DNA from: a virus
Length of the DNA stretch: 60,252 bases
Reading direction: 5' to 3' (one strand)
Virus record (IMG/VR): IMGVR_UViG_3300021599_001627
Span: 1-60,252 of that record
Made by a program: the position numbers and the translations under genes. Under the pieces are notes generated by a model, which saw only the letters and a program-made list of their open reading frames with translations, did no database searches and was not told the DNA's origin. This document shows, piece by piece, positions 6,083 through 58,773 of this stretch. Within the stretch, counting starts at the first letter, position 1; each line of letters starts with the position of its first letter.

Positions 6083-6400
6083 ATGGTGGACCATCACATC
6101 GATGGATCCGTCCTCCTTTCGAAGCGTCTTGCCAAGCTGCGGTTCAGGCAGGGAATCCTCGATTCCTGGAAGTGCCTTTGCGCTTACTGCGGTAGGCCGG
6201 CGCGCACGCTCGATCATGTCCGCCCTCGGTGCAGAGGTGGGCACACCGTCGCGCAGAACCTGATCGCGGCTTGCGCAGACTGCAATCGAGCCAAGGGCTC
6301 GGAGTTGGACTGGGTTAGGTGGTTTCGGGCTCAGACGTTCTGGGATCCGGAACGGGAGGCGGACATATGGCTGTGGCTACATCCAGTCCGAACGGCGTAA
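6083..6400 (+). CDS. HNH endonuclease
   Basis: A 105-residue HNH nuclease, the only plus-strand gene in the head block. Cys pairs CAYC (about residue 33) and CADC (about residue 65) flank the active region [17 protein letters not shown], giving the Asp-His, Asn and structural Zn ligands of the HNH fold. HNH proteins near terminase genes can be DNA-packaging cofactors (as in HK97) or free-standing homing nucleases. Opposite orientation to terminase and portal favours the mobile kind. The ORF continues upstream in frame as a leucine-zipper segment without a normal start codon. Its 3' end overlaps the minus-strand gene at 6315-6626 on the other strand. Confidence 0.85.
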
Positions 6401-6626
6401 GTTTCCAGGCGCGGGATCTGGTGCAGTAGTTGGCTTGGCCAGCTAGGCGAAGACGGCGCAGAACACGGTCCACCAGGCGCGCCAGGGGTTCATACTCGAC
6501 GCCCTCGGGGGCGAGGCTGGCGATCGAGCGGGCGAGATGGGCGGTCTGGCCTTCACCGCGTGCGAGGTGCCAGCGCACTTGGTCTGCTGTCCAGTCTTCG
6601 AGCTCGGGGGAGAAGGTGTGGGGCAT
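6315..6626 (-). CDS. Small winged-helix-like protein
   Basis: A 103-residue protein with an N-terminal Trp/Leu-rich segment ([16 protein letters not shown]) and a C-terminal part ([29 protein letters not shown]) that reads like recognition helix plus wing of a winged-helix protein. Codon use matches the neighbouring head genes, which argues that it is real. Its ATG at 6624-6626 touches the discriminator base of the tRNA gene, so tRNA and mRNA abut in the same transcript. Its last 86 nt are antisense to the HNH gene. I do not recognise a named family. Confidence 0.55.
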
Positions 6627-6698
6627 GGGGGCCGCGAGGATCGAACTCGCCTTAGACCGATTATGAGTCGGCTGCTCTCACCAGATAGCTAGACCCCC
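6626..6698 (-). tRNA. tRNA with CAU anticodon (Met or Ile2)
   Basis: Folded by hand on the minus strand. The acceptor stem GGGGGTC pairs with GGCCCCC over 7 bp (one T-G). The D arm starts GCTATCTGGTGAGAGC. The anticodon stem GCCGA/TCGGT has loop CTCATAA, giving anticodon CAT. A 5-nt variable loop follows, then T arm GCGAG-TTCGATC-CTCGC. The discriminator is A and the CCA end is not encoded. The CAU anticodon fits elongator or initiator Met, or Ile2 if C34 is modified to lysidine; identity elements were not resolved by eye. The gene sits between terminase and the small winged-helix gene, in the same direction. Confidence 0.9.
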
Positions 6699-17001: not shown

Positions 17002-17030
17002 AGCCTAAGGGGGTTGAGGTGAATGGTCAA
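17002..17030 (-). promoter_or_regulatory. Promoter-like element TTGACC-N17-TAGGCT
   Basis: On the minus strand TTGACC (17025-17030) and TAGGCT (17002-17007) are separated by exactly 17 nt, about 95 nt upstream of the DUF932 start. The -35 is one base off consensus; the -10 keeps only the TA....T frame of TATAAT. The same TTGAC(N)-N17-TAGGNT layout precedes the RHH gene at 28283-28513, which raises confidence. Confidence 0.5.
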
Positions 17031-17042
17031 CCTATTCAGGAC
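17028..17042. promoter_or_regulatory. Operator-like motif GTCAACCTATTCAGG
   Basis: The plus-strand sequence GTCAACCTATTCAGG overlaps the -35 element of the promoter candidate at 17002-17030. The same motif with one to two changes occurs at 28541-28555, again on a -35, and at 18788-18802. At 28541 it is part of a perfect inverted repeat, so a dimeric repressor site is plausible. Confidence 0.5.
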
Positions 17043-18594: not shown

Positions 18595-18782
18595 GGGCCG
18601 GGGAACTGGGTGAGCGTTTGAGCGGCAGGCAGCGCGCTCGGGGTTGGGGCGGCGGAGCGGCCGTAATCGATCGCCATGGCGGCCAGGGCCAGGCCGAGGC
18701 CCACGCCCCAGGCGTATTCAGCGGCATGCCAGGGGCGCATGGGCGAACGGGTGCGGGTGCTTCTGCAGTGTGCGCGTTTCAT
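18591..18782 (-). CDS. Small membrane protein (63 aa)
   Basis: A basic N-terminus (MKRAHCRSTRTRSPMRPW) leads into a single hydrophobic helix (YAWGVGLGLALAAMAIDYG) and a short polar tail. Topology inside-positive suggests an N-in single-pass inner-membrane protein. An internal ATG at 18740 would remove the most basic residues. The GTCAACCAAATCAGG motif lies 6 nt upstream of the start. Confidence 0.55.
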   Translation of the reverse strand: MKRAHCRSTRTRSPMRPWHAAEYAWGVGLGLALAAMAIDYGRSAAPTPSALPAAQTLTQFPGP

Positions 18783-18807
18783 GGGAAAGAGTCAACCAAA
18801 TCAGGAA

Positions 18808-20735: not shown

Positions 20736-20920
20736 TGCACCTCCACAACGCGGGCGCTGTTGCCATCGGCCACGATGGAATACCGCTCAGCCAATGCCTC
20801 AGCCTGGGCTGACGTGCAGTGTTCGGTGTAGGTGACCCACTGTTGGCTCACCGCGTGTTTGAGCTGAACCTCCCAATGGGGGCCAATCAGTGATCCGGGG
20901 GGATACCAGTTGCGTTTCAT
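20732..20920 (-). CDS. Small hypothetical protein, first gene after the ncRNA terminator
   Basis: I start it at the ATG at 20920 (MKRNWYPPGSLIGPHWEVQL; 62 residues) because the frame upstream is unlike coding sequence. The remainder (VTYTEHCTSAQAEALAERYS...VVEVQ) looks like a strand-helix-strand unit. It is the 5'-most member of the chain of coupled small genes reaching down to 8732, and lies about 50 nt downstream of the terminator at 20967-20997. It may therefore be transcribed by read-through or from a promoter I cannot see. Confidence 0.6.
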   Translation of the reverse strand: MKRNWYPPGSLIGPHWEVQLKHAVSQQWVTYTEHCTSAQAEALAERYSIVADGNSARVVEVQ

Positions 20921-20966
20921 GCTGAAACTCACAGCTAGAGGGATGGAGATGCAAAGCACCTCAGCC

Positions 20967-20997
20967 AAAAGACCCCCGGACGCAGCGCGCCAGGGGG
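20967..20997 (-). terminator. Rho-independent terminator of the ~1-kb RNA
   Basis: On the minus strand CCCCCTGGCGC and GCGTCCGGGGG (20973-20997) form a GC-rich stem with a T/C mismatch and a G-T pair around a 3-nt loop, followed by TCTTTT. It lies where the hairpin-rich non-coding region ends and just before the first small gene, as expected for the 3' end of a separate transcript. Confidence 0.75.
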
Positions 20998-21345
20998 AAC
21001 TTCTGGGGGAGATGGTTTGTGCGTGTTAGGCAGAGCCGAATGCCCATTGCCACGGTCAACACGCGGTGACCGTATGTGCAGAGCCGGGGTAAGCCGGGTT
21101 GCGTATTCCCATAGGTACAGCAAGACAGTCGCGCCCCTGTTCGCCGGGGTTGCGCTGTCAGCTTCACTGCCTGCCCACTAGACAGCTACTAGCTTCGAAG
21201 GGCTCAGAGCCCGCGCCTGCTAGTGCTCACCTAGGCCCGATGGCTCGGGCGTGGGCTCGGCATCATGCCGCTGCACCTATTCCCCCATACCATCCGGGTC
21301 GGTTAGGGCTGAACACCTATCCCTAGGTGCCCTCCTCTGAGAGGC

Positions 21346-21714
21346 CCGCACAAGGCGGGTCAGCTTGTCCCTCCGGCGAAGCCAGGATTCAGACGATACG
21401 TAGGCCAGACCGCAGGCAAATCGCCGCCCCTGGTACAGACCCCGGCCCTTACGGGCTCATTGTCCGATACGTCTTCCCTCCAAGCTGGGCAGGCTCACCC
21501 GATCACGGGCTCGACACTGCGCTCGGCACGGTTGTTGTTGGTAGGGCGGAGCACAGCTCCGCAACGAGTCATCACATAGGCAGTTCATGAATAGGACGCG
21601 CCGCCGGAGCGGCTGGCCCGACCCTTCCGGATCGGTGCACCTAACCTAGCACCACAGCTGCGCGATCCGTCAAGCGGACCGGCGGCAGAATCACGAAACC
21701 CGCACAAGGTGGGA
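21346..21714 (-). repeat. Repeated hairpin CCCRC-CTTGT-GCGGG inside the ncRNA
   Basis: The plus-strand motif CCCGCACAAGGCGGG near 21346-21360 recurs as CCCGCACAAGGTGGG near 21699-21713. Both form a 5-bp stem with the identical loop CTTGT on the minus strand; the single difference (C to T) is compatible with pairing (G-C to A... read as C-G/C-A on the partner strand, weakening one end). Two identical loops at distant positions in one RNA suggest a repeated tertiary-contact or protein-binding module. Confidence 0.5.
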
Positions 21715-21901
21715 AGCGTGATCGGCGCATGGGCGCAGCAAAGCTGCGGGACCCCATGGGCCTGGTGTTCGGTTGTCTAGGTGCGGTAGGGTGACAGCCC
21801 GGACGCCTTCCGCGACGGCATCGCCGTCCGGGTCGTTTCCGGTTGTCGTTGCCAACCTAGCACGGCCACCGGGCGGGGCAAGCATCAGGCGGCTGTGTCT
21901 A

Positions 21902-21960
21902 TTGAGTCTCGGATTGAGACCTTTCGCGCGCGAAAGAGAATAGATGTCTCGTCGAGACTC
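21902..21960. promoter_or_regulatory. Cluster of palindromes upstream of the ncRNA
   Basis: Within 59 bp lie two GTCTC/GAGAC inverted repeats (GTCTC-GGATT-GAGAC and GTCTC-GTC-GAGAC) and between them the 16-bp perfect palindrome CTTTCGCGCGCGAAAG. The outer arms GAGTCTC and GAGACTC can also pair with each other, so two alternative structures are possible. This could be an operator array or a switchable RNA leader. It sits between the HTH/RHH regulator gene and the body of the ncRNA. Confidence 0.55.
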
Positions 21961-22042
21961 ACGGGTCGCAGACTTGGACAGGCTGCAACGCAGTCAGTAC
22001 ACGTCCAGGACGCTATAAAAAATGTATGTATATGTATTGCTT

Positions 22043-22432
22043 TCAGCTTAGCCTGGCTTTAGTTACAAGCCCGTTAATAATGTCAGGAATACGCACTTTG
22101 CGCTCATCAGCCTGGGCTTGGAGCCATTCAAGGTTCTCTGGCGTAAAGCGGATCGAGCGTCTGTACTTGTGCTCGTCCTCTACGCGCTTTTCACCTCGCT
22201 CTCGGGCGACAGCTTGGCGAGACGCGATGCTCTGGTACTTCTCGACGGCGTCCGAGGTAAGGTCACCTTTCTCGATAGCAGCGCGCAAGCGCAACTGAAC
22301 GGCCTGTCGGCTGATGCCTAGGGTTTTGCCGACCTCGGTCCAGGTGACGAAACCGTCGCGAGCGTAAATCAAGTCGCAGACTGATAGCAGGCGATCCAGA
22401 GAGACTTGTGAGCGCTGGACAGGCGGGCGCAT
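22043..22432 (-). CDS. Two-part DNA-binding regulator (HTH plus RHH-like C-terminus)
   Basis: A 129-residue protein. Residues 10-55 (LDRLLSVCDLIYARDGFVTW then TEVGKTLGISRQAVQLRLRA) form a helix-turn-helix. Residues 90-125 (KYRRSIRFTPENLEWLQAQA, DERKVRIPDIINGLV) look like a ribbon-helix-helix segment with a leading basic strand. Such a combination would bind DNA as a multimer. It lies between the sigma factor gene and the ncRNA and is preceded by its own promoter-like element, so control of the ncRNA region or small-gene operon is a reasonable guess. Confidence 0.72.
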   Translation of the reverse strand: MRPPVQRSQVSLDRLLSVCDLIYARDGFVTWTEVGKTLGISRQAVQLRLRAAIEKGDLTSDAVEKYQSIASRQAVARERGEKRVEDEHKYRRSIRFTPENLEWLQAQADERKVRIPDIINGLVTKARLS

Positions 22433-22454: not shown

Positions 22455-22485
22455 AGCCTAGCACCGAAGCCCCTGCACTCGTCAA
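22455..22485 (-). promoter_or_regulatory. Promoter-like element TTGACG...TGCTAGGCT
   Basis: On the minus strand TTGACG (22480-22485) precedes TGCTAGGCT (extended -10 style, 22455-22463) about 20 nt before the start of the HTH/RHH gene. The spacer to TAGGCT is 19 nt, longer than ideal. The block GTGCTAGGYT recurs at about 21645 (with TTGACG the same distance upstream) and about 21855, both in the ncRNA region, so it may be a phage promoter type. Confidence 0.45.
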
Positions 22486-22661
22486 CCCTCGCGCACGTCT
22501 TCCGCGCTCGGGGCTTGGTACAGCTCTTCGAGTTGGCGGATGAAGTCGGGTTCGGGGGTGACTTGTTCGACCATGATGCGCTCGATGCGTGGGCTAGAAG
22601 CCAGGAGCCGCAGCATCAGTAGTTCGTACCAGCGCAGGGGTACCAGGGGCTCTTTACTCAT
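22482..22661 (-). CDS. Small protein coupled to the sigma factor gene (59 aa)
   Basis: The ATG at 22661 overlaps the sigma factor stop codon (ATGA) and opens a 59-codon frame: [59 protein letters not shown]. It is all-helical with an acidic end. Its coupling to sigma suggests a partner such as a sigma modulator or anti-sigma factor, but this is inference from position alone. Confidence 0.6.
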
Positions 22662-23527
22662 GGTGTGTGACCTTGGCTGCGGAGAATGTTGCGCAGGCGG
22701 TTCAATGCCGTCTTCTGGACCTGGCCGGCGCGGGAGCGGCTGAAGCCCAGTTCGGTAGCGATGTCGCGCAAGGAGCGGTTCTCGAAGAACACGCCGTACA
22801 GGATCTGGGCTTCGACCTCGGGGAGGCGGTTCAGCGCCAGAGTCATCACCTCGCGGTTGTCCTGTAGGCGCAGGGATTCATCGGGGGAGCTGGTGGCGTT
22901 CGCGCTGTCGTAGACGATCAGGTCCATCAGGGCGTTGCCGTCGTCTGTGCACAGCGTGTCGAGCGAGCGGCACGTCGTTGTGGACTGCAGGTCGAGCATG
23001 GCCACGATGCGCTCGGGCGTGGTTTCGCAGTGCGCGGCGATCTCGTCGAAGCTGGGGGCCCGGCCGTTCGTGGCGGTGTACTCGGTAGTGAAGCGCTGCG
23101 CCCGGCCCAGTACTTCGTGGGTGTTGATCGGGAGGCGGATCGGGCGGGCCATGCTGTGGATGGCTCGGGTGATCGCCTGGCGGATCCACCAGTACGCGTA
23201 GGTGGATACCGCGTAGCCGCGCGTCGGGTCGAAGAGTTCGAGGCCGCGGATCAGGCCGAGGTTGCCTTCCTGGATCAGGTCGAGCAGATCCAGGCCCCGG
23301 TTCTGATAGCGCTTGGCGATGGACACGACCAAGCGCAGGTTGGTCTGGACCATGATCGTCATGGCGCGCTCGCCGGCGCGGCGAATGCGCGGCGGGGCGC
23401 TGTCGCGGCCGTCGGCGTGGTGCACCCAGGCGAAGATGCGTTGGCAGTGACGTAGCTGCGCCTCCTTGCTGAGGACGGGGAGCCGACCTACATCGGTCAG
23501 ATAGCTCTGGAGTTCTGTATTGGACAT
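22658..23527 (-). CDS. RNA polymerase sigma factor, cyanobacterial group-2 type
   Basis: A 289-residue sigma-70 family protein. Region 1.2 starts at [20 protein letters not shown]. Region 2 (residues 60-120) has [39 protein letters not shown] and [16 protein letters not shown], so the -10-contact residues of region 2.4 are retained. Region 3 ([10 protein letters not shown]...) and region 4 follow. The -35 helix reads [17 protein letters not shown] instead of the usual VTRERIRQIE..AL.KL, losing the conserved Glu and the second Arg. It resembles host secondary sigma factors rather than T4-type gp55. It probably directs host polymerase to phage promoters such as the TAGGNT sites. Confidence 0.92.
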
Positions 23528-23537: not shown

Positions 23538-23879
23538 TCAACCAGAACTGGATGGGGGAGGGTAAATGAGTGTTGAAGGCTCTGGGATATGGCGCGTAGC
23601 TGGGATGTCCTGCTGAGCGGGGAGCGCGTCGCCCGAGGGCGGATGGACCTCGGGGATGGGAACAGTGTCCGGGGCGTCGTACGGCAGCCAGCCGTTCTCG
23701 GGGTTCAAGTCTCGTGTGAGGTCTTCGCCGAGGTTCCACTGGGCGCGGATGATGTCTTCGAAGCACCGTTCGAGGAGCGGCGCATAGCCTGAGTACGTGA
23801 AGGCGCCGTCAGGGCCATCGTGTAGCTCCCAGCGGTAGTAGCCGTCCTCGGTGGAGCGGATGGTGATGAGGAGGGTCAA
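23538..23879 (-). CDS. Hypothetical protein (113 aa) between thyX and sigma
   Basis: The first 60 residues ([56 protein letters not shown]) form a compact alpha/beta unit with a pattern like 'YYRWEL......G...[13 protein letters not shown]'. The last 45 residues are Pro/Ser-rich and probably disordered. The start overlaps the thyX stop by 4 nt (ATGA), so it is co-translated with thyX. Confidence 0.65.
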
Positions 23880-25546
23880 GGTGCAAGGCGGGCTTTGTGG
23901 AGACGAGTTGAGGCGTACCAGGCCGCGATGGCTGGTGACCAGGCTTCAAAGTGAGGCCAGATCAGATCGCACATCTGCTGGATTTCCTGCTGGGCGTCGC
24001 GCTTGGAACGCAGGTCCAGAAAATGCATCAGCGCTCGCAGCGAGAAGCTCACTACGAAGTGCTGGCGGATGGCGTAGGGGATGAGGTCGCGGGCATGCTC
24101 TTCTGACATGCCGCGGTCCAGGGCGAGCTTGAAGCGAGCGGCCGAGTCGATGCAGATGATGCGGTCGATCGTCCGCTGGTCCTGCGTGTACTCGTAGCTC
24201 TTACCGTTCCGGTCTCGGTAGGTGCCGACAGGGCGCAGGTAGAAGACTTCTTCCGCGTTTCGGGTGCCGTTGACCACGTCGATGATGCGCTGGCTCGTAT
24301 AGCGGCCAGAGTTGTGTACAACGATGCCATCAGCCACAAAGTTGTGATGCGGGGCCTCCATGGCGATGTCGTATGTCTGGACTGTCCCGGCCGGGCGGAT
24401 TGACAAAATGCGAACAGCATGAGCTGCCAGCCGATGACGGAGCTTGTGACAACGGGGGCACAAGACAACTATGTTGCTCGCGTTCGTTGCCAGATCAGGT
24501 CTTTCCAGTACCGGATAGACGTGGTGACAGTGCAATCTTGAATGAGGTTGTGCGCAATCTTGACAAAGGTGCCCAGCCTTTGCAAGAAGCGTTGGCCGAG
24601 CGTACTTCAACCAGTTGTAGGCGCGCTTCTCTATCGGAAGGTCATCCTTCCACGATGGATGTGACGGGCCTTGGTTGAGCTTCCCCTTTTGGAGGCTGGC
24701 AGCGTGGCGTCGGCGTCGGTCGCGCTCGGTTTCGCTGATGTCCAGTTTTTTACCTTCGTGGGAATAGGGGGGTCGTTTACGCCATGTTAGCCCGTAGTGA
24801 TAACTCCACTTTTTAACGGCTTCTGTAGAGACACCAGCAATCAATGCAACCTCCTTAGGTATTAGCCCCTTGGCGTAATGCCGCTCTAGCCACTCTTTGT
24901 TTTGATAAGTGGTGGGTGCTTTTGCGGTTGCCCTGCCATTCACCATCATAGTTTCACCTTCTTTCAGCTCACCAGCAGTCTTCCAGCCGCCTGGGGTCAA
25001 GACACGGTGCTCTGTTGTGCACCGCAAAACCTTGCCGTCAGCCAGGCTTAGTTCAAGAACTGGCTTGAGGCCACCATTGAAGACGGCAAATATGCGGTTG
25101 ACTACAAACTCGTTTCTTTCTTCGTCTAATGAGCGAAGCCTGAGGGCGCGGACCTTGCCTGGGTCCTCGTTCCAGAGAGCGGCAACCTTTTCAAGCGTTA
25201 CGGTTCCTGTCTTGATGCCATTTTTGTCAACAACGGTTATCTCGGAAGCCTGATCAAGACACTGCACGTCGAAGCTCACGCCGACCCGGTGGGTGCGGGC
25301 CTGCTGCATCACCGAGTGGGGGAACCAGCCCACGTTGAAGCTGATCTGCGGGTGCTCCAGGGGGCCGTAGTGGCCACGCTCGCCGGCGAGGAGGTGCTTG
25401 ACGACGATGGCGCCGCACTCGGCATCGGACGGGGGGTCCTCGTTGAAGACGAAGTTTTCGCTGTAGTCCTGGTGCATTGCCCACCAGATCAGCGTCTGGG
25501 GTGTTTCAGTCCGGGCGAGGACTTCGACCTTGAAATACGGGTCCAT
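23876..25546 (-). CDS. thyX: Flavin-dependent thymidylate synthase ThyX with an intein
   Basis: ThyX makes dTMP from dUMP using FAD and methylene-tetrahydrofolate. I start it at the ATG at 25546, which overlaps the upstream stop (TGATG); the frame to 25582 adds 12 residues. The enzyme halves are residues 1-95 (ending RTHRVGVSFDVQ) and 413-556 (starting SGRYTS). Joined, they restore the ThyX signature in its cyanobacterial form (THR.....FD.Q.SGRY), giving a 239-residue enzyme of normal length. Residues 96-412 are an intein inserted inside that signature. The C-terminal half holds RDLIPYAIRQHFVVSFSLRA and LRSKRDAQQEIQQMC, typical of the family. It supplies dTMP for phage DNA and lies next to a dNMP kinase-like gene. 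Confidence 0.93.
   Translation of the reverse strand: MDPYFKVEVLARTETPQTLIWWAMHQDYSENFVFNEDPPSDAECGAIVVKHLLAGERGHYGPLEHPQISFNVGWFPHSVMQQARTHRVGVSFDVQCLDQASEITVVDKNGIKTGTVTLEKVAALWNEDPGKVRALRLRSLDEERNEFVVNRIFAVFNGGLKPVLELSLADGKVLRCTTEHRVLTPGGWKTAGELKEGETMMVNGRATAKAPTTYQNKEWLERHYAKGLIPKEVALIAGVSTEAVKKWSYHYGLTWRKRPPYSHEGKKLDISETERDRRRRHAASLQKGKLNQGPSHPSWKDDLPIEKRAYNWLKYARPTLLAKAGHLCQDCAQPHSRLHCHHVYPVLERPDLATNASNIVVLCPRCHKLRHRLAAHAVRILSIRPAGTVQTYDIAMEAPHHNFVADGIVVHNSGRYTSQRIIDVVNGTRNAEEVFYLRPVGTYRDRNGKSYEYTQDQRTIDRIICIDSAARFKLALDRGMSEEHARDLIPYAIRQHFVVSFSLRALMHFLDLRSKRDAQQEIQQMCDLIWPHFEAWSPAIAAWYASTRLHKARLAP
24311..25261 (-). mobile_element. Intein with HNH homing endonuclease inside thyX
   Basis: This 317-residue protein intron has the expected splicing residues: Cys1 at the start (CLDQASEITVVDKNG), the block B TTEH (LRCTTEHRVLTPGGWKTAGE), block F near the end (TYDIAMEAPHHNFVADG) and the terminal His-Asn before Ser+1 (VVHN/SGRY). 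The centre carries an HNH nuclease: HLCQDCAQP, LHCHHVYPVL, and VVLCPRCHKLRHR, with all Zn and catalytic positions present. A helix-turn-helix-like LIPKEVALIAGVSTEAVKKW segment precedes it and may help DNA binding. All parts look intact, so splicing and homing should both be possible. Confidence 0.93.
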
Positions 25547-25782
25547 CAGCCTTTGCGGTACACGATTGGACGGGATGAGCACTCGATCTGTGCCACACGC
25601 CAGGTACGGCCCGCGGGATCGAGCAGCGTGTAATGCGGGAAGCCCAGCCAGAGCTCACCACTGACCACCTTGAAGGTCTCGTCGAAGCCACGACCTCGGA
25701 CGTAGACGCTGTTACCTAGGCGGAAGCGCCAGGGGTGGGTGAGGCGCTCTTCGAACTCGGGAACGTGAGGGTGCGGTGTCAT
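25546..25782 (-). CDS. Small conserved protein upstream of thyX (78 aa)
   Basis: Contains EERLTHPWRFRLGNSVYVRG, FDETFKVVSGELWLGFPHYT and LLDPAGRTWRVAQIECSSRP: a beta-rich 'F..G..V.V.G......V.G.L...FPHY.LLD..G..WR..Q' pattern resembling a small SH3-like barrel. It overlaps the thyX start (TGATG) and the dNMP kinase-like stop (ATGA), so the three genes are translated as a unit. Function not known to me. Confidence 0.72.
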   Translation of the reverse strand: MTPHPHVPEFEERLTHPWRFRLGNSVYVRGRGFDETFKVVSGELWLGFPHYTLLDPAGRTWRVAQIECSSRPIVYRKG

Positions 25783-28516: not shown

Positions 28517-28545
28517 ACCCTAGGCGTGAACGGGGAAGGCGTCAA
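28517..28545 (-). promoter_or_regulatory. Promoter-like element TTGACG-N17-TAGGGT
   Basis: On the minus strand TTGACG (28540-28545) and TAGGGT (28517-28522) are 17 nt apart, immediately before the RHH gene. It has the same architecture as the element at 17002-17030. A -10 this close to the GTG start would give an mRNA with little or no leader. Confidence 0.5.
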
Positions 28546-28560
28546 CCGATTCAGGTTGAC
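28541..28560. promoter_or_regulatory. Palindromic operator GTCAACC-N6-GGTTGAC
   Basis: GTCAACC (28541-28547) and GGTTGAC (28554-28560) are a perfect 7-bp inverted repeat around GATTCA, overlapping the -35 hexamer of the promoter candidate at 28517-28545. One arm plus spacer (GTCAACCNATTCAGG) recurs at 17028 and, less well, at 18788. Binding by one of the phage's own RHH or Cro-like proteins would shut off this promoter. Confidence 0.6.
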
Positions 28561-28583
28561 CAATTTGGAAGAAATACCAGTGG

Positions 28584-29695: not shown

Positions 29696-29843
29696 AGGGC
29701 GTCCCTAGCGTGTTGGGCGACGTCCCAAACATAAAAGAGACAGAAGCGTTTTCGCTACTACATAAGGTTTCTTGCACCTTTTAGTCATTGTCCAGCTTTG
29801 GTTGCGCCGGTAGCGTGACCGGGGCCGGTTGGCCCGGCGCATG

Positions 29844-36289: not shown

Positions 36290-37420
36290 TCAGAGGGTTA
36301 GGCCGTGCATGGCTTTCTGAATCCGGTCGGCTTCGATCCACCGCTGGTAAGTCGACTGATGCACGGACAGGCTGTGCCCCATCAGTCGGGCGGCCAGGTC
36401 CGCGGCCACACCCTTGCTCATCAGGCGCAACGCGTAGGCGTGCCGCAGGTTGTACGGCTTGATCGTCACCTGATCTCTGGCGAGGGCGTCGGAGAACGCC
36501 TTGCTGAGGCCCTGGGCGGACTGACTCGGCCGACACAAATTGTGAAGATCAAACTGGCTTACCCACGCTCTCGGGCAGGGAGTGACCCGCCGGCTGCCGG
36601 TCTTGGTGGCGTCGGCCACCTCGATCCAGTCGTCCTCCAGCCAGATCAGCTCGGCGCATTCGTGGGGGCGGAGGCCGTAGGCCGCGCACATGGCAAAGGT
36701 CCAGCGCCAGTGCGGCAGAGTGACTTGCTTGAGCGCGGCCTCGATTGCCTCGTCCGACGGGATGTCGCGCTCGGTGAGCTTGTCGACGCCGTAGCCGCGG
36801 CAGGCGGCGAGCAGTGGCTCGTGATCGAGGCCGAGGGAGCGGGCCACCTGGGCCAGCAGGTTGCCCTGGTCGCGCCGGGCGGCAGTGCCCTCGGGGAGCT
36901 TTCGGATGCAGCGGAGCAGGACCCCCTCAGTGATGACCCCCGAGGGCGGCAGTTTGCGTAGGGCCGGCGCCCACTTCTTCGACCAGGCGGCGGTGCCGCG
37001 CTCGGGGGCTTTGGCGTACTTGCTGGCGTGGAGGCCCTGGGCGGCAGCGTGGAAGTCCGACACGGTGATGACGGACGCGTCAGGAGCTTCCCACGCAGTC
37101 CACGTAAAGGTGCTGGTGCGTAACTGGTGGCCCAGCTCGACGGCTTTGCGTTCGGCTTCGGGGAGGGCGGAGAACTCGGCGGGCAGTCCGAGGGCAATGC
37201 GCTGCTGGCGTCGCTGCGACGGATCGTCACGCGTTGGCAGGGTTGCCCTGAGGTGCAGGGAGGCCCCGCGCAGCTCGACAACGCACTTCTGGTGCCCGGC
37301 CTTCAGGCGGGCGTTCAGCTCTTGTAGGGCAGCGTCGAGGGCCAAGGTCTGGACTAAAACCTGGACTACTTTCCCCGTCAGCTTAGGTCTGTTTTGGTCG
37401 AGCCTGGCTGAATTAAGCAA
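36290..37420 (-). CDS. int: Tyrosine recombinase / integrase
   Basis: A 376-residue site-specific recombinase. The N-terminal 110 residues form an arm-binding-type domain, and 115-215 a core-binding domain. The catalytic domain has Arg251 (AAYGLRPHECAEL), the box II region PYNLRHAYALRL (Arg326; the usual first His of HxxR is Tyr323), His349 (RLMGHSLSVH) and the nucleophile Tyr358 (STYQRW). All but one of the usual catalytic positions are present. It lies between the excisionase-like gene and the tRNA-Pro-like attP candidate, the classical arrangement. Confidence 0.92.
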   Translation of the reverse strand: MLNSARLDQNRPKLTGKVVQVLVQTLALDAALQELNARLKAGHQKCVVELRGASLHLRATLPTRDDPSQRRQQRIALGLPAEFSALPEAERKAVELGHQLRTSTFTWTAWEAPDASVITVSDFHAAAQGLHASKYAKAPERGTAAWSKKWAPALRKLPPSGVITEGVLLRCIRKLPEGTAARRDQGNLLAQVARSLGLDHEPLLAACRGYGVDKLTERDIPSDEAIEAALKQVTLPHWRWTFAMCAAYGLRPHECAELIWLEDDWIEVADATKTGSRRVTPCPRAWVSQFDLHNLCRPSQSAQGLSKAFSDALARDQVTIKPYNLRHAYALRLMSKGVAADLAARLMGHSLSVHQSTYQRWIEADRIQKAMHGLTL

Positions 37421-37429
37421 GCCGCCACG

Positions 37430-37590
37430 GGCCTAAAAGCACTGCGCTGCAAAGAATCCGAGTGCTGGCCTGGAATTTTTCTTCTGGTGGCGTAGATGGA
37501 GTAGGCACTACCCCAAAGTGGTGCGCTACCAAGCTGCGCTACGCCCCGGACTGGGATCTCGGGGGGTGGTCTCCTGGGGTTGGCCTAAAA
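37430..37590. promoter_or_regulatory. Direct repeats GGCCTAAAA flanking the attP core (arm-type sites?)
   Basis: GGCCTAAAA is present at 37430-37438 and 37582-37590, on either side of the tRNA-like core, in the same orientation. A further TGGCCTAG follows at 37592, and GGCCT/AGGCC inverted partners occur at 37636-37648. Tyrosine integrases bind short arm-type repeats on both sides of attP; this arrangement fits, but the assignment is inference. Confidence 0.45.
37506..37548 (-). other. attP: attP-like site: 5' half of tRNA-Pro(GGG)
   Basis: Read on the minus strand from 37548 the sequence begins CGGGGCGTAGCGCAGCTTGG and continues TAGCGCACCACTTTGGGGTAGTG. This is the acceptor 5' strand, D arm and anticodon arm of a tRNA-Pro with loop TTGGGGT (anticodon GGG). 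The match then ends; no variable loop, T arm or acceptor 3' strand follows, so it is not a working tRNA. A tRNA half about 90 bp from the integrase start is what an attP core looks like. Integration would swap in the phage copy of the 5' half. Confidence 0.75.
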
Positions 37591-39934: not shown

Positions 39935-40100
39935 TGGCTACCTCCTGTGCGGCGACAAAGGCTGCTGCTGCCTCCTGAATGGCATCCATGGTTGGGTAGT
40001 CGTTGAACTTGAAGAACTGCGCTTCAGTATTGGTGAGCACGACACGGGCGTACCACTTGCCAGCGAGGTCCTGTTCAACAGCATGGACGTGATAGGTCAT
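39918..40100 (-). CDS. Small protein of the fibre operon (60 aa)
   Basis: MTYHVHAVEQDLAGKWYARV, VLTNTEAQFFKFNDYPTMDA, IQEAAAAFVAAQEVANAPAE: a short beta part and an Ala-rich amphipathic helix. Starts 2 nt after the large fibre gene. Possibly a fibre chaperone or accessory subunit, by position only. Confidence 0.6.
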   Translation of the reverse strand: MTYHVHAVEQDLAGKWYARVVLTNTEAQFFKFNDYPTMDAIQEAAAAFVAAQEVANAPAE

Positions 40101-40102
40101 GG

Positions 40103-42550
40103 TCAGGCTTGCGAGATGGTTAGGTCATCGACCCACCCAGAGAAGGTGGTGCCGCCAAAAGCTTCAGCAGTAATTTCAACTACGCCGGTTTCAGTCGGGG
40201 TGAAGGTGACAGTTTCCTCTTCCCAGGCGTTGACAGCAACTACCGATGATGTTACGTTATTGACAACCCCAGCGATCTGACCGCCTTTGCAGACTAGGCG
40301 CATTGTCAGGCCAGCATTATCGCGTCGCATCCATGCTTTGACGGTTACCAGGGAATTGGCAGCGCAGGCGACTTTGGCAAGACTAAGTGTTACCGGCCAG
40401 TTTGCACTACGCTCGGTGTTGGTCGGTTGAATCTTCCAGCTAATTCCATTATTGGTATTGCGTTGATCCGTAGCGGAACTGACTATGGCACCGTGCATAA
40501 ATATTCTGTGACTATTAGCTGTTTGGTTATCATTTTGAGATGTTACTAAGTAATCCGAATATGAACCAAAGCCTGTAACTGGAGTAGGCGAATTCAGAGC
40601 GACGTCTTTGAGATATTGGAAGCCCGACTGACCAGTATATATATCGGAGGTAGGATTATCTTTGAAAATCAAGCTGGAAATATATGCAGTTCCAGAGGAC
40701 AGGTTGAGCCCGTAGCTGCCGTTATTTGCAAATAAAATTGACGAATTAGCCCCTTTTACATAAGCTATATTTCCGCTAATGAACATGGCGCTGAAATTAC
40801 TAACAAAGGCACCGCTTACGGTAACATTTGGACGTAGTCCCGATATACTCGGGCCACCCGCTGAGACTATAAAGCCAATATTATAAGTGCCGTAGCTAAC
40901 TTGACTTGTAAAGATGGCACTGTTTGTTGAATTATTCGACGCAATAATATCATAAACAATCCAAGAGCCAATATTTGAGCTTATATTGTTATTAAATCGA
41001 GTAAGGGCAAATCCTTGTATTACCATCCAGTTTCTGCTGTCCGCTACTATTCCGTTTCCATTGCCATTCACGCCATCAAGCCAGGTTTCAGAAGTTTTAG
41101 TACTCATATCTGTTCGATTCCAGCCGCCGCTATAAGTCGTAGGACTACCTTCAACGCCACTTTCTAATAAAGATATAACCGCTGTACTTGCCGATGCCGA
41201 GGGTCCAATTTTAATTGTTTCTCTTTTCCATGTTGTTATCGTTTCGCTAATGCCATAGTATCCACGCAATGAAGAAATGCTGGGTATAATATTTGTCTCA
41301 GCATCCAGCATGACGCGAGTACCATTAATACTTTGAATGCCCCAAAATGTTTCAGTTGCCGTATTCTTGCCAATTAAGCTAGTAAGCGTCAGGCTATCGT
41401 CAGCACTACTGGCTTTGCAGGCGATAATATTGGATAACAGGAAAGTTTGCGCACCATTATCAGTATTGACATAAAGTGCGATACTTTGAATGTTGCTGCC
41501 TAGATTTGTGTTCAAATTTACTGTTACTGGCATCCAACGTCCTATGGCAGCCAGGCTTGGGACACTAATAGTATTAACGGCTGTCGTGCCAGTCGTATCT
41601 GAGCATAAACGTAAATCAATAGCACCAGCCGCTCCAATAGTGCCGCCAGTTTGTTGTATCCAAAAACTTACTTGTTGATAGCCAGACAAATCAAGAGTGC
41701 CTGTCGCCCAGAAAGCTGCACGACCTGTTGTAAAGCCTGCAGCAATGGTAATCTGGTCGCTTCGGGCGTGTTCTTTTGTATTAACGGTATTTAGTGAAGC
41801 GGTGACGTTGGCCCCACCCGCCGAAGTCCATGCCGCACGGCCAGGACCAGTACTAGCGATATTTGCGGTAACGGCACTGGTCAAGAGAACGCGCATATTG
41901 TTACACAGTCGCGCTGTACCACTACTGCCTACACCATTTCCTGCGCTGCCGGTAAGTGTAAATGTGTTTACACCGGTATTGGTTATCTCCCAGGTACCGT
42001 TAGCGTTGGTATTTGTTAAATGCCCAGTGATTACAATAGTGTCACCTGTGCTATAGCCGTGCGCGTTGCATGTAACTGAAATTGGCGTAGTATTAGTGCT
42101 GCTGCTAATGGCTTTTGCCGCCTGCTGAATTTGACTTGTCCATACGCCATTTTGACCTAAACTTGTTGGATCTGGACTTGCTATTACGCGAATAGTATCA
42201 CCTGGTATTGTCCTTACTAGCGTGGCACCACTCGCAAAGGTTCTCCAGCGACCACCAATATAGTATTGACGATCTATGGATTGGTTCGCCAGTCCCGTGC
42301 CTCCAGATATTGCAGCAATCGTAAGCGAAGTAGAAGATACCCAGGCTCCAATTCGGTAAACCGCATAAATTGCGCCATTAAAAATACTTAGGTACTGGCC
42401 AATCAGAGATCCGTCGTTTGGAAATGACGCTCCGACACTACTGAATGTCGTACTGGTGATGCGACCATTTGTTCCTTGCGCTAGCGGTGCAAAACTGGTA
42501 CCAGCATAATTATCATTACCGTTCTCGAAATCGATGTACAGAGTAGCCAT
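40103..42550 (-). CDS. Tail fibre / receptor-binding protein with beta-helix and jelly-roll end
   Basis: An 815-residue, Ser/Thr/Asn-rich protein. The N-terminus MATLYIDFENGNDNYAGTSF resembles the start of right-handed beta-helix proteins ('Y.D...GND...GTS'). The middle consists of repeating short hydrophobic beta strands consistent with a pectate-lyase-like beta-helix. The C-terminal 120 residues (WPVTLSLAKVACAANSLVTV, KAWMRRDNAGLTMRLVCKGG, WEEETVTFTPTETGVVEITA) look like a jelly-roll carbohydrate-binding domain. It is noticeably more AT-rich than the head genes, as expected for a host-range gene exchanged between phages. Confidence 0.8.
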   Translation of the reverse strand: MATLYIDFENGNDNYAGTSFAPLAQGTNGRITSTTFSSVGASFPNDGSLIGQYLSIFNGAIYAVYRIGAWVSSTSLTIAAISGGTGLANQSIDRQYYIGGRWRTFASGATLVRTIPGDTIRVIASPDPTSLGQNGVWTSQIQQAAKAISSSTNTTPISVTCNAHGYSTGDTIVITGHLTNTNANGTWEITNTGVNTFTLTGSAGNGVGSSGTARLCNNMRVLLTSAVTANIASTGPGRAAWTSAGGANVTASLNTVNTKEHARSDQITIAAGFTTGRAAFWATGTLDLSGYQQVSFWIQQTGGTIGAAGAIDLRLCSDTTGTTAVNTISVPSLAAIGRWMPVTVNLNTNLGSNIQSIALYVNTDNGAQTFLLSNIIACKASSADDSLTLTSLIGKNTATETFWGIQSINGTRVMLDAETNIIPSISSLRGYYGISETITTWKRETIKIGPSASASTAVISLLESGVEGSPTTYSGGWNRTDMSTKTSETWLDGVNGNGNGIVADSRNWMVIQGFALTRFNNNISSNIGSWIVYDIIASNNSTNSAIFTSQVSYGTYNIGFIVSAGGPSISGLRPNVTVSGAFVSNFSAMFISGNIAYVKGANSSILFANNGSYGLNLSSGTAYISSLIFKDNPTSDIYTGQSGFQYLKDVALNSPTPVTGFGSYSDYLVTSQNDNQTANSHRIFMHGAIVSSATDQRNTNNGISWKIQPTNTERSANWPVTLSLAKVACAANSLVTVKAWMRRDNAGLTMRLVCKGGQIAGVVNNVTSSVVAVNAWEEETVTFTPTETGVVEITAEAFGGTTFSGWVDDLTISQA

Positions 42551-42558
42551 GCTTTACC

Positions 42559-42768
42559 TCAGGCGGTGTACTTGATCCAAATGTCGCCGTCGATCCCACC
42601 AGTGGGATCGGTAGTACTGGTAGTGATGTTGTTGATCTTCACCATGCTGCCAGCTGCATTCTTCACGTACAACCGACCATTGGTTGAGTCCCAAGCTGGT
42701 TCACCTTCAACAAACGATACTGCGCTCGGTACTGTGCTACCGCGCCGTAACCTCAGCGTGTTAGCCAT
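42559..42768 (-). CDS. Short fibre-tip protein (tropism-determinant-like N-terminus)
   Basis: Start placed at MANTLRLRRGSTVPSAVSFV (42768), 2 nt after the upstream stop; 69 residues. EGEPAWDSTNGRLYVKNAAG follows. The 'LRRG....PS...GEPA.....RLYVK...G' pattern is the small domain at the N-terminus of many phage fibres (major tropism determinant-like). It stands alone here. Confidence 0.7.
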   Translation of the reverse strand: MANTLRLRRGSTVPSAVSFVEGEPAWDSTNGRLYVKNAAGSMVKINNITTSTTDPTGGIDGDIWIKYTA

Positions 42769-42770
42769 GT

Positions 42771-43616
42771 TCAGAACGTCCCGCAATCCACGGTGATACC
42801 ATCAAACGTGGTGAGGTTTGTGATTGACCCACCTGTAATTGTGACGTTTATGGCGTCTTGCGTGCTAAGGGTACCCAACCCACTGATGTCCGTGTTGGGG
42901 ATAGTGGCACTCGCTGTCAGCGCTGCAGTGCCGGACCCTTTGACGTAGCCCGTCAAGCTGGTGGCACCCGTTCCCCCATAGGCCACGGAAATTGCCGTGC
43001 CCTGCCACACACCGGTGCCAATGGTGCCAACGCTGGTGAGGCTGGAGCTGGTGACCCCACTGCCCAAAGTGCTGCCGCTGAGCACGCTGGTGCCGTTGAT
43101 GTAGAACGCCTTACCGCTAGCAAGATTCAGGTGCTCGCTGCTAGTCCAGGCATCCGTGGCATCAACCCAGTTGAAGGTCTTATCCGTGGTGCCCTTGAGC
43201 GTAATGCCACCGCCATCCGCACCGGCATCAGTGGGACTAGCAGTGTCCCCAAGAACAATGTTTTTATCGTCAACTGTGATCGTGGTTGAGTTGATCGTTG
43301 TCGTCGTGCCGTTTACAGTCAGATCACCACCGACAGTGATATTGCCTGTAGTGCTGAACGAAGCGATGGTGGCACTACTGAGATCAACGGTGCCGGTAAA
43401 CGTCTTATTGCCGCTGATTGTCTGCGATGTGTCCAGCGTGATGTAGGCGCCGCTGCCGCCGATGGCAACAACACTGGTGGCTGAGCCCCCTGCTCCCCCG
43501 GTTCCAACGCCAATGAACAGCTTGGAGCTGTTCTCCGAATAGGCCAGCTCTGCATTGGCCAGCGTTGAAGGCGCTGCCGTAGCGGTTGAGCGTTTGATTC
43601 TGATCGTGTTCGGCAC
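42771..43616 (-). CDS. Tail fibre protein (281 aa), cyanophage type
   Basis: Starts MPNTIRIKRSTATAAPSTLA, NAELAYSENSSKLFIGVGTG: the same tropism-determinant-like head. It then has repeats of 'TGNITVGGDLTVNGTTTTIN', 'TVDDKNIVLGDTASPT' and ends TTFDGITVDCGTF. These strings are familiar from fibres of myo- and siphocyanophages. The Gly/Thr/Ser composition predicts a trimeric beta fibre. Confidence 0.82.
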   Translation of the reverse strand: MPNTIRIKRSTATAAPSTLANAELAYSENSSKLFIGVGTGGAGGSATSVVAIGGSGAYITLDTSQTISGNKTFTGTVDLSSATIASFSTTGNITVGGDLTVNGTTTTINSTTITVDDKNIVLGDTASPTDAGADGGGITLKGTTDKTFNWVDATDAWTSSEHLNLASGKAFYINGTSVLSGSTLGSGVTSSSLTSVGTIGTGVWQGTAISVAYGGTGATSLTGYVKGSGTAALTASATIPNTDISGLGTLSTQDAINVTITGGSITNLTTFDGITVDCGTF

Positions 43617-43664
43617 GGCGGCCTAAGGCTGAAGCTAGCCCCAGCTTATCGCTGGTCTACGATT

Positions 43665-43928
43665 TCAAAAGTTCCCACCGTCGGTAATAGTCTCTTTGGT
43701 TATAGTGCTATCTACTTTGTAAATGCCAGCGGCTCCATCGTAATAAATAAGGCTTTTATCTGTTTTGTTCGTATCGTTGATGTTGAAATTGCCTGGAGGG
43801 CCTTGCTGCCCTTCGGTGACAAGCGCAACAGTACCTGTAACGCCGGCAGAGGTGACAACAACAGATGAGTTGGCTTCGTCAGTGACAGTTATATCGACTT
43901 TGTCTACCGTAACTACGACTTGGTTCAT
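43665..43928 (-). CDS. Small structural protein with collagen-like turn (87 aa)
   Basis: Nearly pure beta sequence: MNQVVVTVDKVDITVTDEAN, VTGTVALVTEGQQGPPGNFN, then INDTNKTDKSLIYYDGAAGI. The GQQGPPG segment is a short collagen-like piece often found in fibre joints. It overlaps the upstream gene by ATGA. Confidence 0.68.
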   Translation of the reverse strand: MNQVVVTVDKVDITVTDEANSSVVVTSAGVTGTVALVTEGQQGPPGNFNINDTNKTDKSLIYYDGAAGIYKVDSTITKETITDGGNF

Positions 43929-44266
43929 GGGACTGCGGTATAGCCCTCAGCCACGGTCACGGAGCCTTCGAGGTAGTAATCGCGGTCGCCAGAAGCATTG
44001 ATGACCAGGACATCGTACGCCGCTTCGTTCGGAAGGCTCGATGTCGTTGTGTACATCAACTTCAAGCGGACTTTGCCAAGAGGGCGGCTGATGTACTCGA
44101 CGGTGAAATCGGCGTGCTTGGTCGTGCGGCTAATATCCCAGATCTGGGCGGCGACGGTACTGCCTGTAAGATTTATCGGGTTATTATTGCTATCTTTGAA
44201 CTCCAAAATGACGCTGTAATCAGCGCGGCGCTGCAATTTGATGTTGTAGACCCCAGGCTGAATCAT
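43925..44266 (-). CDS. Beta-sandwich structural protein (113 aa)
   Basis: MIQPGVYNIKLQRRADYSVI, LEFKDSNNNPINLTGSTVAA, QIWDISRTTKHADFTVEYIS. A pattern of 'Y.....L.D..G.PI.LTG......I' followed by alternating strands resembles the N-terminal baseplate-upper-protein (BppU-like) fold used in tail adaptors. A fibre-attachment role is inferred. Confidence 0.7.
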   Translation of the reverse strand: MIQPGVYNIKLQRRADYSVILEFKDSNNNPINLTGSTVAAQIWDISRTTKHADFTVEYISRPLGKVRLKLMYTTTSSLPNEAAYDVLVINASGDRDYYLEGSVTVAEGYTAVP

Positions 44267-44304
44267 GACGAGCTCCTCCTGGGGCAGTTTATCGAGCTCG
44301 GCTC

Positions 44305-44574
44305 TTAGCGAACAAGATTGCGCAATGCCGCTTTGACCGGGTCATACAAGGTGATGACCGTTTGGATTTGCGCGTCAGTGGCGCGTTTGCCGAGGGCGTC
44401 GTTCACCGCGCTCGCGATGACTCCTTCCACCTTGGCAGGGGGTGCGTTGCGAACGAGCAGCTCGGGAAGCTCCGCGTCGAGTCGCTTGTAGATATACGGC
44501 AGGACACGACGGAGGCTCTCATCGAGCGCGGCGCGCAACAGCAGCTTGCTGACACGCAGGAAGAGCTTTTTCAT
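44305..44574 (-). CDS. Helical protein next to holin-like genes (89 aa)
   Basis: Start at 44574 (ATGA overlap). MKKLFLRVSKLLLRAALDES, LRRVLPYIYKRLDAELPELL, then AKVEGVIASAVNDALGKRAT. Basic amphipathic N-terminus and helical body; possibly membrane-peripheral. It is in the same transcription unit as two small membrane proteins. Confidence 0.62.
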   Translation of the reverse strand: MKKLFLRVSKLLLRAALDESLRRVLPYIYKRLDAELPELLVRNAPPAKVEGVIASAVNDALGKRATDAQIQTVITLYDPVKAALRNLVR

Positions 44575-44828
44575 GAGTCTGATGGCGGTGGGGTGCTGCG
44601 AGACCGTCCTCGGGTGGAGGAGGTTTGGCTGGGCGACTCTGTGATGTACGCCCACATTGTCGAGGCAGCGCCGCCGGCGACAGTGAAGGCTTGCGTCCAT
44701 TGGTTTCCGCATTGACCTGGGCGACGCAGTTCGCAGCTGAGGACGTTGGCGGAGGCCATTACTAGCATGTATGAATAACAGCCGACGAGCAGCTTGAAGA
44801 CAAGGGATAAGGCAGCAGGATTATTCAT
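44571..44828 (-). CDS. Small membrane protein, holin candidate (85 aa)
   Basis: MNNPAALSLVFKLLVGCYSY, MLVMASANVLSCELRRPGQC, GNQWTQAFTVAGGAASTMWA. One or two membrane segments (residues 7-28 and about 48-66) and a polar tail of Ser/Arg/Pro. Size and topology suit a holin or spanin-like partner for the endolysin at 37979-39124. Holins share little sequence, so this remains a candidate. Confidence 0.62.
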   Translation of the reverse strand: MNNPAALSLVFKLLVGCYSYMLVMASANVLSCELRRPGQCGNQWTQAFTVAGGAASTMWAYITESPSQTSSTRGRSRSTPPPSDS

Positions 44829-45093
44829 TGTTTACCCCACATCTGGTAGCCGGCGGAATGACTTCTAGCTTTGATACTCGTTGTTCGATGCTGCCAAGAC
44901 GGCTGAGTGTTTCGCGTCGATCGGCTTTGATGTCGACGTGGAGTGTTTCGAGGCGAGTGGCGACGTTCTCGACGGCGGCTGTCAGCCGGATGACAGCATC
45001 GCGACCCTCACGTGAGCGGCTTCCCATGGCACCCAATCCCATAGCGCCCACAGTGATTGAGGCCCCGAGGGCTGCAGCAATGACCTCAACCAC
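44821..45093 (-). CDS. Membrane-anchored coiled-coil protein (90 aa)
   Basis: A hydrophobic N-terminus (VIAAALGASITVGAMGLGAM) is followed by a basic region and a coiled coil (ENVATRLETLHVDIKADRRE, TLSRLGSIEQRVSKLEVIP). This topology (TM plus coiled coil) is typical of phage lysis accessory proteins (hemolysin XhlA-like or i-spanin-like). It overlaps the holin candidate by 8 nt. Confidence 0.65.
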   Translation of the reverse strand: MVEVIAAALGASITVGAMGLGAMGSRSREGRDAVIRLTAAVENVATRLETLHVDIKADRRETLSRLGSIEQRVSKLEVIPPATRCGVNNE

Positions 45094-45150
45094 GACTAAG
45101 GCGAAGGCGACAACCTCAGGGTATCGGTGTTTCGATTAGAGGGTTGCAGC

Positions 45151-45294
45151 TCAGCGACCTTGGCCGCGGGTCTTTTTGCGTCCTCGGCGGGCTGGGCGCG
45201 AATGTTGACCTTGCCCTTGCGCTGTTGTTTTCGGGGGGCCGGACTGGAATTCGCGGCGGAGGCTAGAGATTCCGGTCTTGCTCTTGGTGGCCAA
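45151..45294 (-). CDS. Short Arg/Lys/Gln-rich protein with TTG start (47 aa)
   Basis: An in-frame TAA lies two codons before the TTG at 45294, so TTG is the only possible start. The product MATKSKTGISSLRREFQSGP, PKTTAQGQGQHSRPARRGRK, KTRGQGR is extremely basic and probably unstructured. I recall very similar short proteins in picocyanobacterial siphophages, which supports the call. The sequence looks like a DNA- or RNA-binding peptide or a virion internal peptide. Confidence 0.6.
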   Translation of the reverse strand: MATKSKTGISSLRREFQSGPPKTTAQGQGQHSRPARRGRKKTRGQGR

Positions 45295-45330
45295 CGCTTA
45301 GCGGCGACTGATCCAAGCTACAGAGAATGA

Positions 45331-46110
45331 TTAACCGGAGTACACGATGTTGACTGCACCAGCATCGAAGGTATCGGTACCGTTAACAGTTGTAATGCGC
45401 ACGCGGTCAAGAACAGCTGCCAGGGTGACACTGCCCCCAGCGCAGGAAGCCTGGGCAGTGTCGCTACTACCGGTTGCTGATGACATCACCCACTGATTCG
45501 CGTTGATGAGGGTAATGGATGCTTCTCCGTGGGAAATGGTAGTAGCGGCTCGCGCTGCGGTTACCAGCAGACCTGTTGTTGAGTTGGCTGTAGATGCTGT
45601 CGACGTGAAAGCTCCTGAGGTATAGCCAGTTGTTGTTACACCGCTAGATGTGCCCAGTTGAATCTGCAGATTAGACGTGCCACTTGTACTGACACCAGCG
45701 AACATGACAGTAATTCGCTTTGTCCAGCTTGGAATGGTGGTGAAATCGATTGATGCGCCACTTGTGCTGGCCTGTGCGGTTGCACGGATGATGCGCGCGC
45801 GGTCGACCCAGCTCTGAGTGCCGGAACCATCTGTTGCTACGACTTGATCAGCAGTGCCAGAAGCTGTAGGGGCGACCAGCAGGCCCAGGTTGGTGGTTGC
45901 CAGAGTCCCGATAGTGATCCATCCGGTATTGGCGGCGTTACGCAGCTTCAGCAGACCCGTCGTGACGTCAGCCCAAGGCTGGTACGCATACGTCGTGGTC
46001 GGGGCGGTGGCTCCGCTGTTCAGCGATACAGCAGCGGCGAGGGCGTTGTTGAGGTCGGCGCGTACGGCGGCGCCGCTGGCGTTATCGATGATGTAATCGT
46101 GTTGCGCCAT
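45331..46110 (-). CDS. Tail fibre / tip protein (259 aa)
   Basis: N-terminus MAQHDYIIDNASGAAVRADL, NNALAAAVSLNSGATAPTTT, YAYQPWADVTTGLLKLRNAA, NTGWITIGTL is a conserved cyanophage/phage fibre start that is thought to attach to the tail tip. The C-terminal two thirds are Ser/Thr-rich beta sequence. It follows the gpJ-like genes by 2 nt. Confidence 0.82.
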   Translation of the reverse strand: MAQHDYIIDNASGAAVRADLNNALAAAVSLNSGATAPTTTYAYQPWADVTTGLLKLRNAANTGWITIGTLATTNLGLLVAPTASGTADQVVATDGSGTQSWVDRARIIRATAQASTSGASIDFTTIPSWTKRITVMFAGVSTSGTSNLQIQLGTSSGVTTTGYTSGAFTSTASTANSTTGLLVTAARAATTISHGEASITLINANQWVMSSATGSSDTAQASCAGGSVTLAAVLDRVRITTVNGTDTFDAGAVNIVYSG

Positions 46111-46112
46111 GG

Positions 46113-49516: not shown

Positions 49517-50085
49517 GACTTGACGCGCTCGGTGGAGACGCCGGCACTAACCACGATGCTGCCGACGACGGTTTCGCCGTAGACGATGGGGATGGGGAGG
49601 CCAGCACGGCTGACGTTTTGGATGCCGGAGAAGCTGTAGGACTTCTGCTTCGGGTCTTTCTGTTCCTGAGATGTCTGTGGTGTAGGTGCCAGCAGCTGGG
49701 CAACACCCCCGAGAACGAGGCTGGCGCCGATGCCGAAGGCAATGCTCTTGAGTGCAATCCCAGCCAGGAGCGCGGTGCCGGGGATGAAAAAGGAAGCGGC
49801 GACCAGGAGGGCCCCGACGATGATGCGACCGATGGCTCCGGCGCCGGAGAGCACTGGGGTGATGGTGATAACTTCCTCGGCGCCCACGGGGTAGTGGATT
49901 TCGTCCTCGGTGAGGATGTGGCGGCCGGCGCGCACGCGGTAGTGCTGCTCGACCATGTGCACTTCGAGGTGGGGGAAATTGGCGATCAGGAAGCGGACGG
50001 CCTCGGCTACAGATGACACGTCAGCGCGGAAGGTGTGCTGCCCGAGCTCTTTGGCCAACCGTCCGTAGACACGTATGAGGCGCAT
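49513..50085 (-). CDS. Tail assembly protein I-like
   Basis: 190 residues. MRLIRVYGRLAKELGQHTFR and AVRFLIANFPHLEVHMVEQH form the ubiquitin-like N-terminal domain; EIHYPVGAEEVITITPVLSG precedes a hydrophobic glycine-rich segment (IGRIIVGALLVAASFFIPGT); the C-terminus is NVSRAGLPIPIVYGETVVGS. This is the order in lambda gpI relatives, which assist tail-tip assembly. It overlaps the gpJ-like gene by ATGA. Confidence 0.88.
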   Translation of the reverse strand: MRLIRVYGRLAKELGQHTFRADVSSVAEAVRFLIANFPHLEVHMVEQHYRVRAGRHILTEDEIHYPVGAEEVITITPVLSGAGAIGRIIVGALLVAASFFIPGTALLAGIALKSIAFGIGASLVLGGVAQLLAPTPQTSQEQKDPKQKSYSFSGIQNVSRAGLPIPIVYGETVVGSIVVSAGVSTERVKS

Positions 50086-50088
50086 AGT

Positions 50089-51566: not shown

Positions 51567-51570
51567 GAGA

Positions 51571-53343: not shown

Positions 53344-53346
53344 GGC

Positions 53347-58063: not shown

Positions 58064-58069
58064 GGCCGT

Positions 58070-58771: not shown

Positions 58772-58773
58772 CT

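Follow-up and report, generated by a model that had tools for sequence, protein, structure and literature searches.

Introduction

Can a phage sigma factor that keeps the body of a cyanobacterial sigma factor but carries a changed −35 recognition helix direct the host RNA polymerase to promoters of the phage's own? The question is raised by a gene in the IMG/VR record IMGVR_UViG_3300021599_001627, positions 1–60,252. The window referred to below is this whole stretch of DNA, which is one virus record of 60,252 bases. A preliminary description of its sequence had proposed that the gene encodes a cyanobacterial-type sigma factor with regions 1.2, 2, 3, and 4, a canonical region 2.4, an altered region 4.2 helix, and a shifted −35 preference.

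Phage sigma factors take different forms, and T4 gp55 is a small protein rather than a full-length one. It redirects the host core polymerase to late genes (PMC5780444). Phage-encoded sigma factors of the cyanobacterial type are known in several cyanosiphoviruses (PMC3751600; PMC6157547; S-CBS1 and S-CBS3 records; P-SS2, PMC2784084). In a small number of searches of the open-licence literature, no description of an altered −35 helix was found. Phage sigma factors of this type are thus already known; what is new here is the change in the reading helix.

The Phage and Its Probable Host

That the gene is phage-encoded is borne out by the virus record itself, with its terminase, portal, tail, and integrase genes. 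The window encodes a large terminase, a portal protein, a tape measure protein, a lambda J-like tail protein, an endolysin, a Prim-Pol primase, a DNA polymerase, and ThyX; the integrase match is weak. Taken together, the terminase, portal, tail, lysis, and replication genes and the weak integrase indicate a siphovirus. A cyanobacterium is most likely the host, because the nearest cultured terminases are those of Cylindrospermopsis and Nodularia siphoviruses, and the nearest ThyX proteins (58%) are those of Synechococcus phages. A search with the first 25 kb of the window found no cultured phage that matched at the nucleotide level.

The weak integrase gene (36290–37420) adjoins a stretch at 37420–37565 on the minus strand, CGGGGCGTAGCGCAGCTTGGTAGCGCACCACTTTGGG, which by eye is the 5′ half of a tRNA-Pro gene and is near-identical in the related genome G001. 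This stretch is a likely attP site, which would make a temperate life cycle possible. The ThyX gene (23876–25582, minus strand) is split by an intein carrying an HNH endonuclease domain. A tRNA-Met (CAT) gene (6626–6698, minus strand) lies near the portal gene, directly upstream of a doubtful short ORF (6315–6626).

Domain Architecture of the Sigma Factor

The sigma ORF is intact, from its ATG start to its stop, at exactly the location first described, and its strand, which had not been given, is the minus strand (Table 1). Pfam Sigma70_r2, Sigma70_r3, and Sigma70_r4 each score above their curated cut-offs, which places the protein in the sigma-70 family. Region 1.2 is recognisable and canonical, so that all four regions are present as proposed, and residues 105–124 confirm the canonical region 2.4. 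The AlphaFold2 model (mean pLDDT 81.6) contains the helices of all domains, including the helix-turn-helix of region 4. SigA and RpoS structures match the model along about 290 residues, with low TM-scores that are read as a reflection of the domain arrangement.

The assignment to the cyanobacterial type holds in the sense that the best NCBIfam model is TIGR02997 (cyanobacterial RpoD/SigA), though at 224.6 bits the protein falls below the cut-off of 384.5 and hence outside that subfamily as scored. Membership of sigma-28/group 3 is not indicated either, since the FliA_WhiG model gives 94.9 bits for the whole protein. The presence of regions 1.2–4 without region 1.1 agrees with group 2, whereas the canonical recognition residues of a group 2 region 4.2 are replaced (E585S and R588G).

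Table 1. Coordinates of the sigma gene, its parts, its neighbours, and promoter-like sites in the window.
Feature	Position	Strand	Basis or remark
Sigma-70 family factor, 289 aa, regions 1.2, 2, 3, 4	22658..23527	−	ORF, Pfam, AlphaFold2
Canonical region 2.3–2.4, residues 105–124	23156..23215	−	Sequence
Region 4.2 recognition helix SRSRAGQVQ, residues 263–271, E585S and R588G (E. coli numbering)	22715..22741	−	Sequence
59-aa protein, start overlapping the sigma stop (ATGA)	22482..22661	−	Conserved LRWYExWxLxxLxxSPRI; beside sigma in most relatives
129-aa regulator, downstream of sigma, conserved	22043..22432	−	N-terminal helix-turn-helix below Pfam cut-offs; C-terminal stretch ribbon-helix-helix-like by eye
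Conserved promoter P1, GGTTGACG-N17-TAGGGT, ahead of the leftward run of genes that includes sigma	28517..28547	−	Same position in 6/6 relatives compared
Promoter-like P2, GGTTGACG-N19-TAGGCT, TGC extended −10, ahead of the 129-aa regulator gene	22455..22487	−	Sequence
Promoter-like P3, GGTTGACT-N17-CACACT	18767..18797	−	Sequence
Promoter-like P4, GGTTGACC-N17-TAGGCT, upstream of a DUF932 gene	17002..17032	−	Sequence
Promoter-like TTGTCC-N17-TAGCGT, upstream of the primase	29788..29816	+	Conserved in four relatives

The Altered Recognition Helix

Compared with TRERIRQIE of E. coli, the helix carries the changes T583S, E585S, I587A, R588G, and E591Q and keeps R584, R586, and Q589. The claimed loss of one Glu and one Arg from the −35 contact set is therefore correct, and E591 is lost besides. 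The same helix occurs in three contigs at 93% identity and in two at 76–80%; its recurrence in several contigs rules out a sequencing accident. Near variants of the form S/C/T-R-S/C-R-A-G/S-Q-V/I/L-Q were found in relatives at 59–64% identity.

Published work places E585 in contact with the C of the −33 G:C pair and assigns the reading of −31 to R584; R588 probably holds E585 in position, and the substitutions E585Q and R588H relax the specificity at −33 (PMC2613000; PMC10911233). Given these roles of E585 and R588 at −33 (PMC2613000), a relaxed or changed reading of −33 is a sound prediction for the phage factor. The shifted −35 preference of the preliminary description is a reasonable deduction from these residue functions; its TAGGNT promoter candidates display no shifted −35 element.

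The region 4 profile of the window's clade matches sigma-28 FliA best (9e-11; best SigA 9.1e-8) and without gaps. The better fit of FliA structures arises mostly from a shorter loop and an S-R-x-S/G-Q pattern. FliA, like the window protein, has Ser at the E585 site, and it has Ser where the window protein has Gly at the R588 site. The window protein differs from FliA-WhiG factors in its group 2 regions 1.2–3 and its retained R584.

Ancestry and Known Relatives

Among the matches listed from the collections searched, relatives at 55–94% identity occur only in viral contigs, and the highest-scoring cellular proteins are group 2 sigma factors of cyanobacteria, with 37–44% identity. Maximum-likelihood analysis of 104 sequences put the window protein in a phage-only clade of 35 rows (support 96). 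Its own group comprises 12 rows (support 100) on a long stem of about 1.1 changes per site. The picture was the same, again with a support of 96 for the phage-only clade, when the helix columns were left out of the alignment. The phylogeny suggested as a check thus placed the protein outside every host clade sampled, rather than within a host clade that shares its helix. Some of the deep joins involve long branches; the exact sister group is accordingly unsure, and the separation from host sigma factors is unaffected.

The group 2 RpoD-like sigma factors of S-CBS1, S-CBS3, KBS-S-2A, and S-LBS1 are likewise phage-borne, full-length, and of the cyanobacterial RpoD type, with 36–38% identity among the matches listed. 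The first three group with the window protein in the phage-only clade, to the exclusion of host factors (support 96); S-LBS1 was not placed. These three keep Glu585 and Arg588 (SRERIRQ, SREAIRQ, and SRERVRQ), whereas the window protein does not. The cyanobacterial group 2 factors of the SigB–SigE type share regions 1.2–4 and the best family model (TIGR02997) with it, but they retain an acidic residue (E or D) at 585 and also R588. The sigma factor of the cyanosiphovirus P-SS2 has also been called group 2 (PMC2784084); it is very divergent and has no recognisable 4.2 helix of the window type.

Spread of the Double Change

E or D at 585 together with R at 588 was kept in all 43 cyanobacterial sigma factors sampled from groups 1 and 2. 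Within the phage-only clade, each position was kept in 15 of 35 sequences, and both were lost in the other 20. When 60 viral sequences were added (n = 159), both were kept in 105 and both lost in 50, with four discordant cases. The double loss was found in 50 of 116 non-host sequences, almost all from phages, and in none of the 43 host factors. E585 and R588 therefore look like a coupled pair that is nearly always lost together. The tree needs only about 5–7 changes for the whole pattern, and a sign test on independent pairs was not significant, the pairs being too few to reach significance; coupling was dropped as a phylogenetic test for this reason. On the sequences compared, the double change is a lineage trait.

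The helix as a whole also varies more in phages, with an identity of 0.42 between phage pairs versus 0.755 between host pairs (region 2.4: 0.80 versus 0.87). Comparison at matched overall divergence gave a lower helix conservation for phages than for hosts in each identity bin, with region 2.4 about equally conserved in both. It is tentatively suggested, as a reading less likely than not, that the −35 helix has been rewired several times over in cyanophage sigma factors while their group 2 body was conserved, that E585 and R588 may shift as a unit towards a sigma-28-like pattern, and that −35 codes belonging to each lineage might separate late genes from host SigA.

Gene Neighbourhood

The order of sigma, the small LRWYE protein, and the regulator is kept in most relatives, in some with an extra small gene between. 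The 59-aa protein has no Pfam match and no match in cultured phages; as a guess, it and the 129-aa regulator are candidate partners of the sigma factor. The regulator is followed by a non-coding gap of 1.19 kb (20852–22042) without predicted genes. It contains two promoter-like sites, GTGCTAGGTT, conserved in G001, and small RNAs are possible there.

Promoter Classes in Related Genomes

Promoters were compared in seven related genomes (the window, G001–G005, and G008), with genes called by a simple script and not by a standard gene finder. The sole robust conserved class was GGTTGAC-N17-TANNNT, often with TAGGNT, which has an ordinary −35 element. GTTGAC dyads were observed 13 times versus 0.3 expected, as few distinct promoters repeated as orthologues; they lie at several loci, and GTTGAC always has a further G before it. 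The window has four GGTTGAC promoters, none of them upstream of structural genes. Of its 19 TAGGNT sites, 12 lie between genes, in 11.5% of the sequence. The proposal that TAGGNT marks this sigma factor's own promoters is not supported, as the conserved −35 elements are TTGAC and P1 stands upstream of the sigma gene. Because P1 precedes the sigma factor's own operon, it is most likely read by host SigA.

No distinct −35 promoter class for the window factor emerged from the de novo searches, which gave only the GGTTGAC and TTGTCC dyads; the primase dyad TTGTCC-N17-TANNNT is present in five of the seven genomes. For TT[ACT]AC-N17-TANNNT, with 2 sites against an expectation of 0.39 (p 0.06), enrichment was not clear, and a FliA-like TAAA −35 element showed none. 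TTTCC-N17-TANNNT was dropped as a class, having few sites, mostly at single loci. A de novo EM motif search of upstream regions was dominated by base composition and gave no usable motif, and a spaced-word search by gene family found no clear late motif. A (T/C)ANNCTGG pattern was noted by eye near some late genes.

In clades with a canonical helix (K, M, and H), no strong TTGAC class was found, the counts being too small to infer a code. The related SKARLQA/SRGRLQK clade has 18 TTGAC promoters versus 1.1 expected. In one of its phages, G022, near-consensus TTGACA-N17-TATAAT sites lie almost wholly in an early-looking block of small genes and are absent upstream of large, presumably structural, genes. 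This pattern fits a division in which host SigA reads the early genes and another factor the rest. The sites form an array (L230, G022 40001–60000) in which every promoter serves a single small gene or a short group of them and has the element AATAAATGC upstream.

An imperfect dyad, GTCAACC-N6-GGTTGAC (28545–28565), overlaps the −35 element of P1, and partial half-sites, CCTGAATNGGTTGAC, occur at P3, at P4, and in the sigma leader. Instead of belonging to a promoter code, the dyad may serve as the operator for a phage regulator.

Proposed Role and Alternatives

With modest confidence, the protein is taken to be a functional phage sigma factor whose body is of group 2 (SigA-like) and whose −35 helix is changed; it would give the host core access to phage promoters on which host SigA performs poorly. 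It would be made early or in mid infection from the host-type promoter P1 (TTGACG-N17-TAGGGT), within a run of nucleotide and replication genes. Through its intact region 2, in which the core-binding sequence is conserved, it would bind the host core polymerase, and through the canonical region 2.4 it would melt ordinary TANNNT −10 boxes. The −35 region would be read with the changed helix; without E585 and R588, the requirement for G at −33 is expected to disappear or to change, and the retained R584 should still read −31. The promoters served in this way would probably be those of later genes.

It is also conceivable, though rather doubtful, that ordinary specificity is kept. The factor would then read GGTTGAC-N17-TANNNT, perhaps via the extra GG, the helix change would alter affinity only, and its role would be one of dosage, flooding the host core with a phage copy. 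This is the one strongly enriched class in the seven genomes, and the TTGAC promoters of the SKARLQA/SRGRLQK clade point the same way: clades with altered helices have strong TTGAC promoters, so their sigma factors could read TTGAC. However, a host sigma factor must be the first to read the GGTTGAC promoter before the sigma operon, the 13 sites reduce to a few repeated promoters, and E585 and R588 are the very residues that read −33G. An unlikely alternative is weak −35 dependence, with the 59-aa protein or the 129-aa regulator as a partner at extended −10 promoters such as those in the gap. The conserved gene order would suit such a partner, as would the TGC-TAGG(T/C)T sites that G001 shares (22460, 21859, and 21648), but these sites are few, and the regulator may instead act on the GTCAACC-N6-GGTTGAC sites as an ordinary repressor. 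That the gene was copied recently from one host sigma factor whose helix polymorphism pre-existed in the host is very improbable; its best cellular matches are indeed cyanobacterial group 2 factors, but the phage-only clade and its long stem contradict a recent copy, and no host sequence sampled has this helix.

Conclusions

Gene timing in cyanobacterial phages that encode sigma factors is largely unmeasured. If the helix change is neutral, the finding is that of an ordinary phage sigma factor. A family of the favoured kind, with a fixed body and −10 reading and a variable −35 helix, would provide a natural set for tests of E585 and R588 in −35 specificity. It would also help to single out the promoters of importance in abundant cyanophages.
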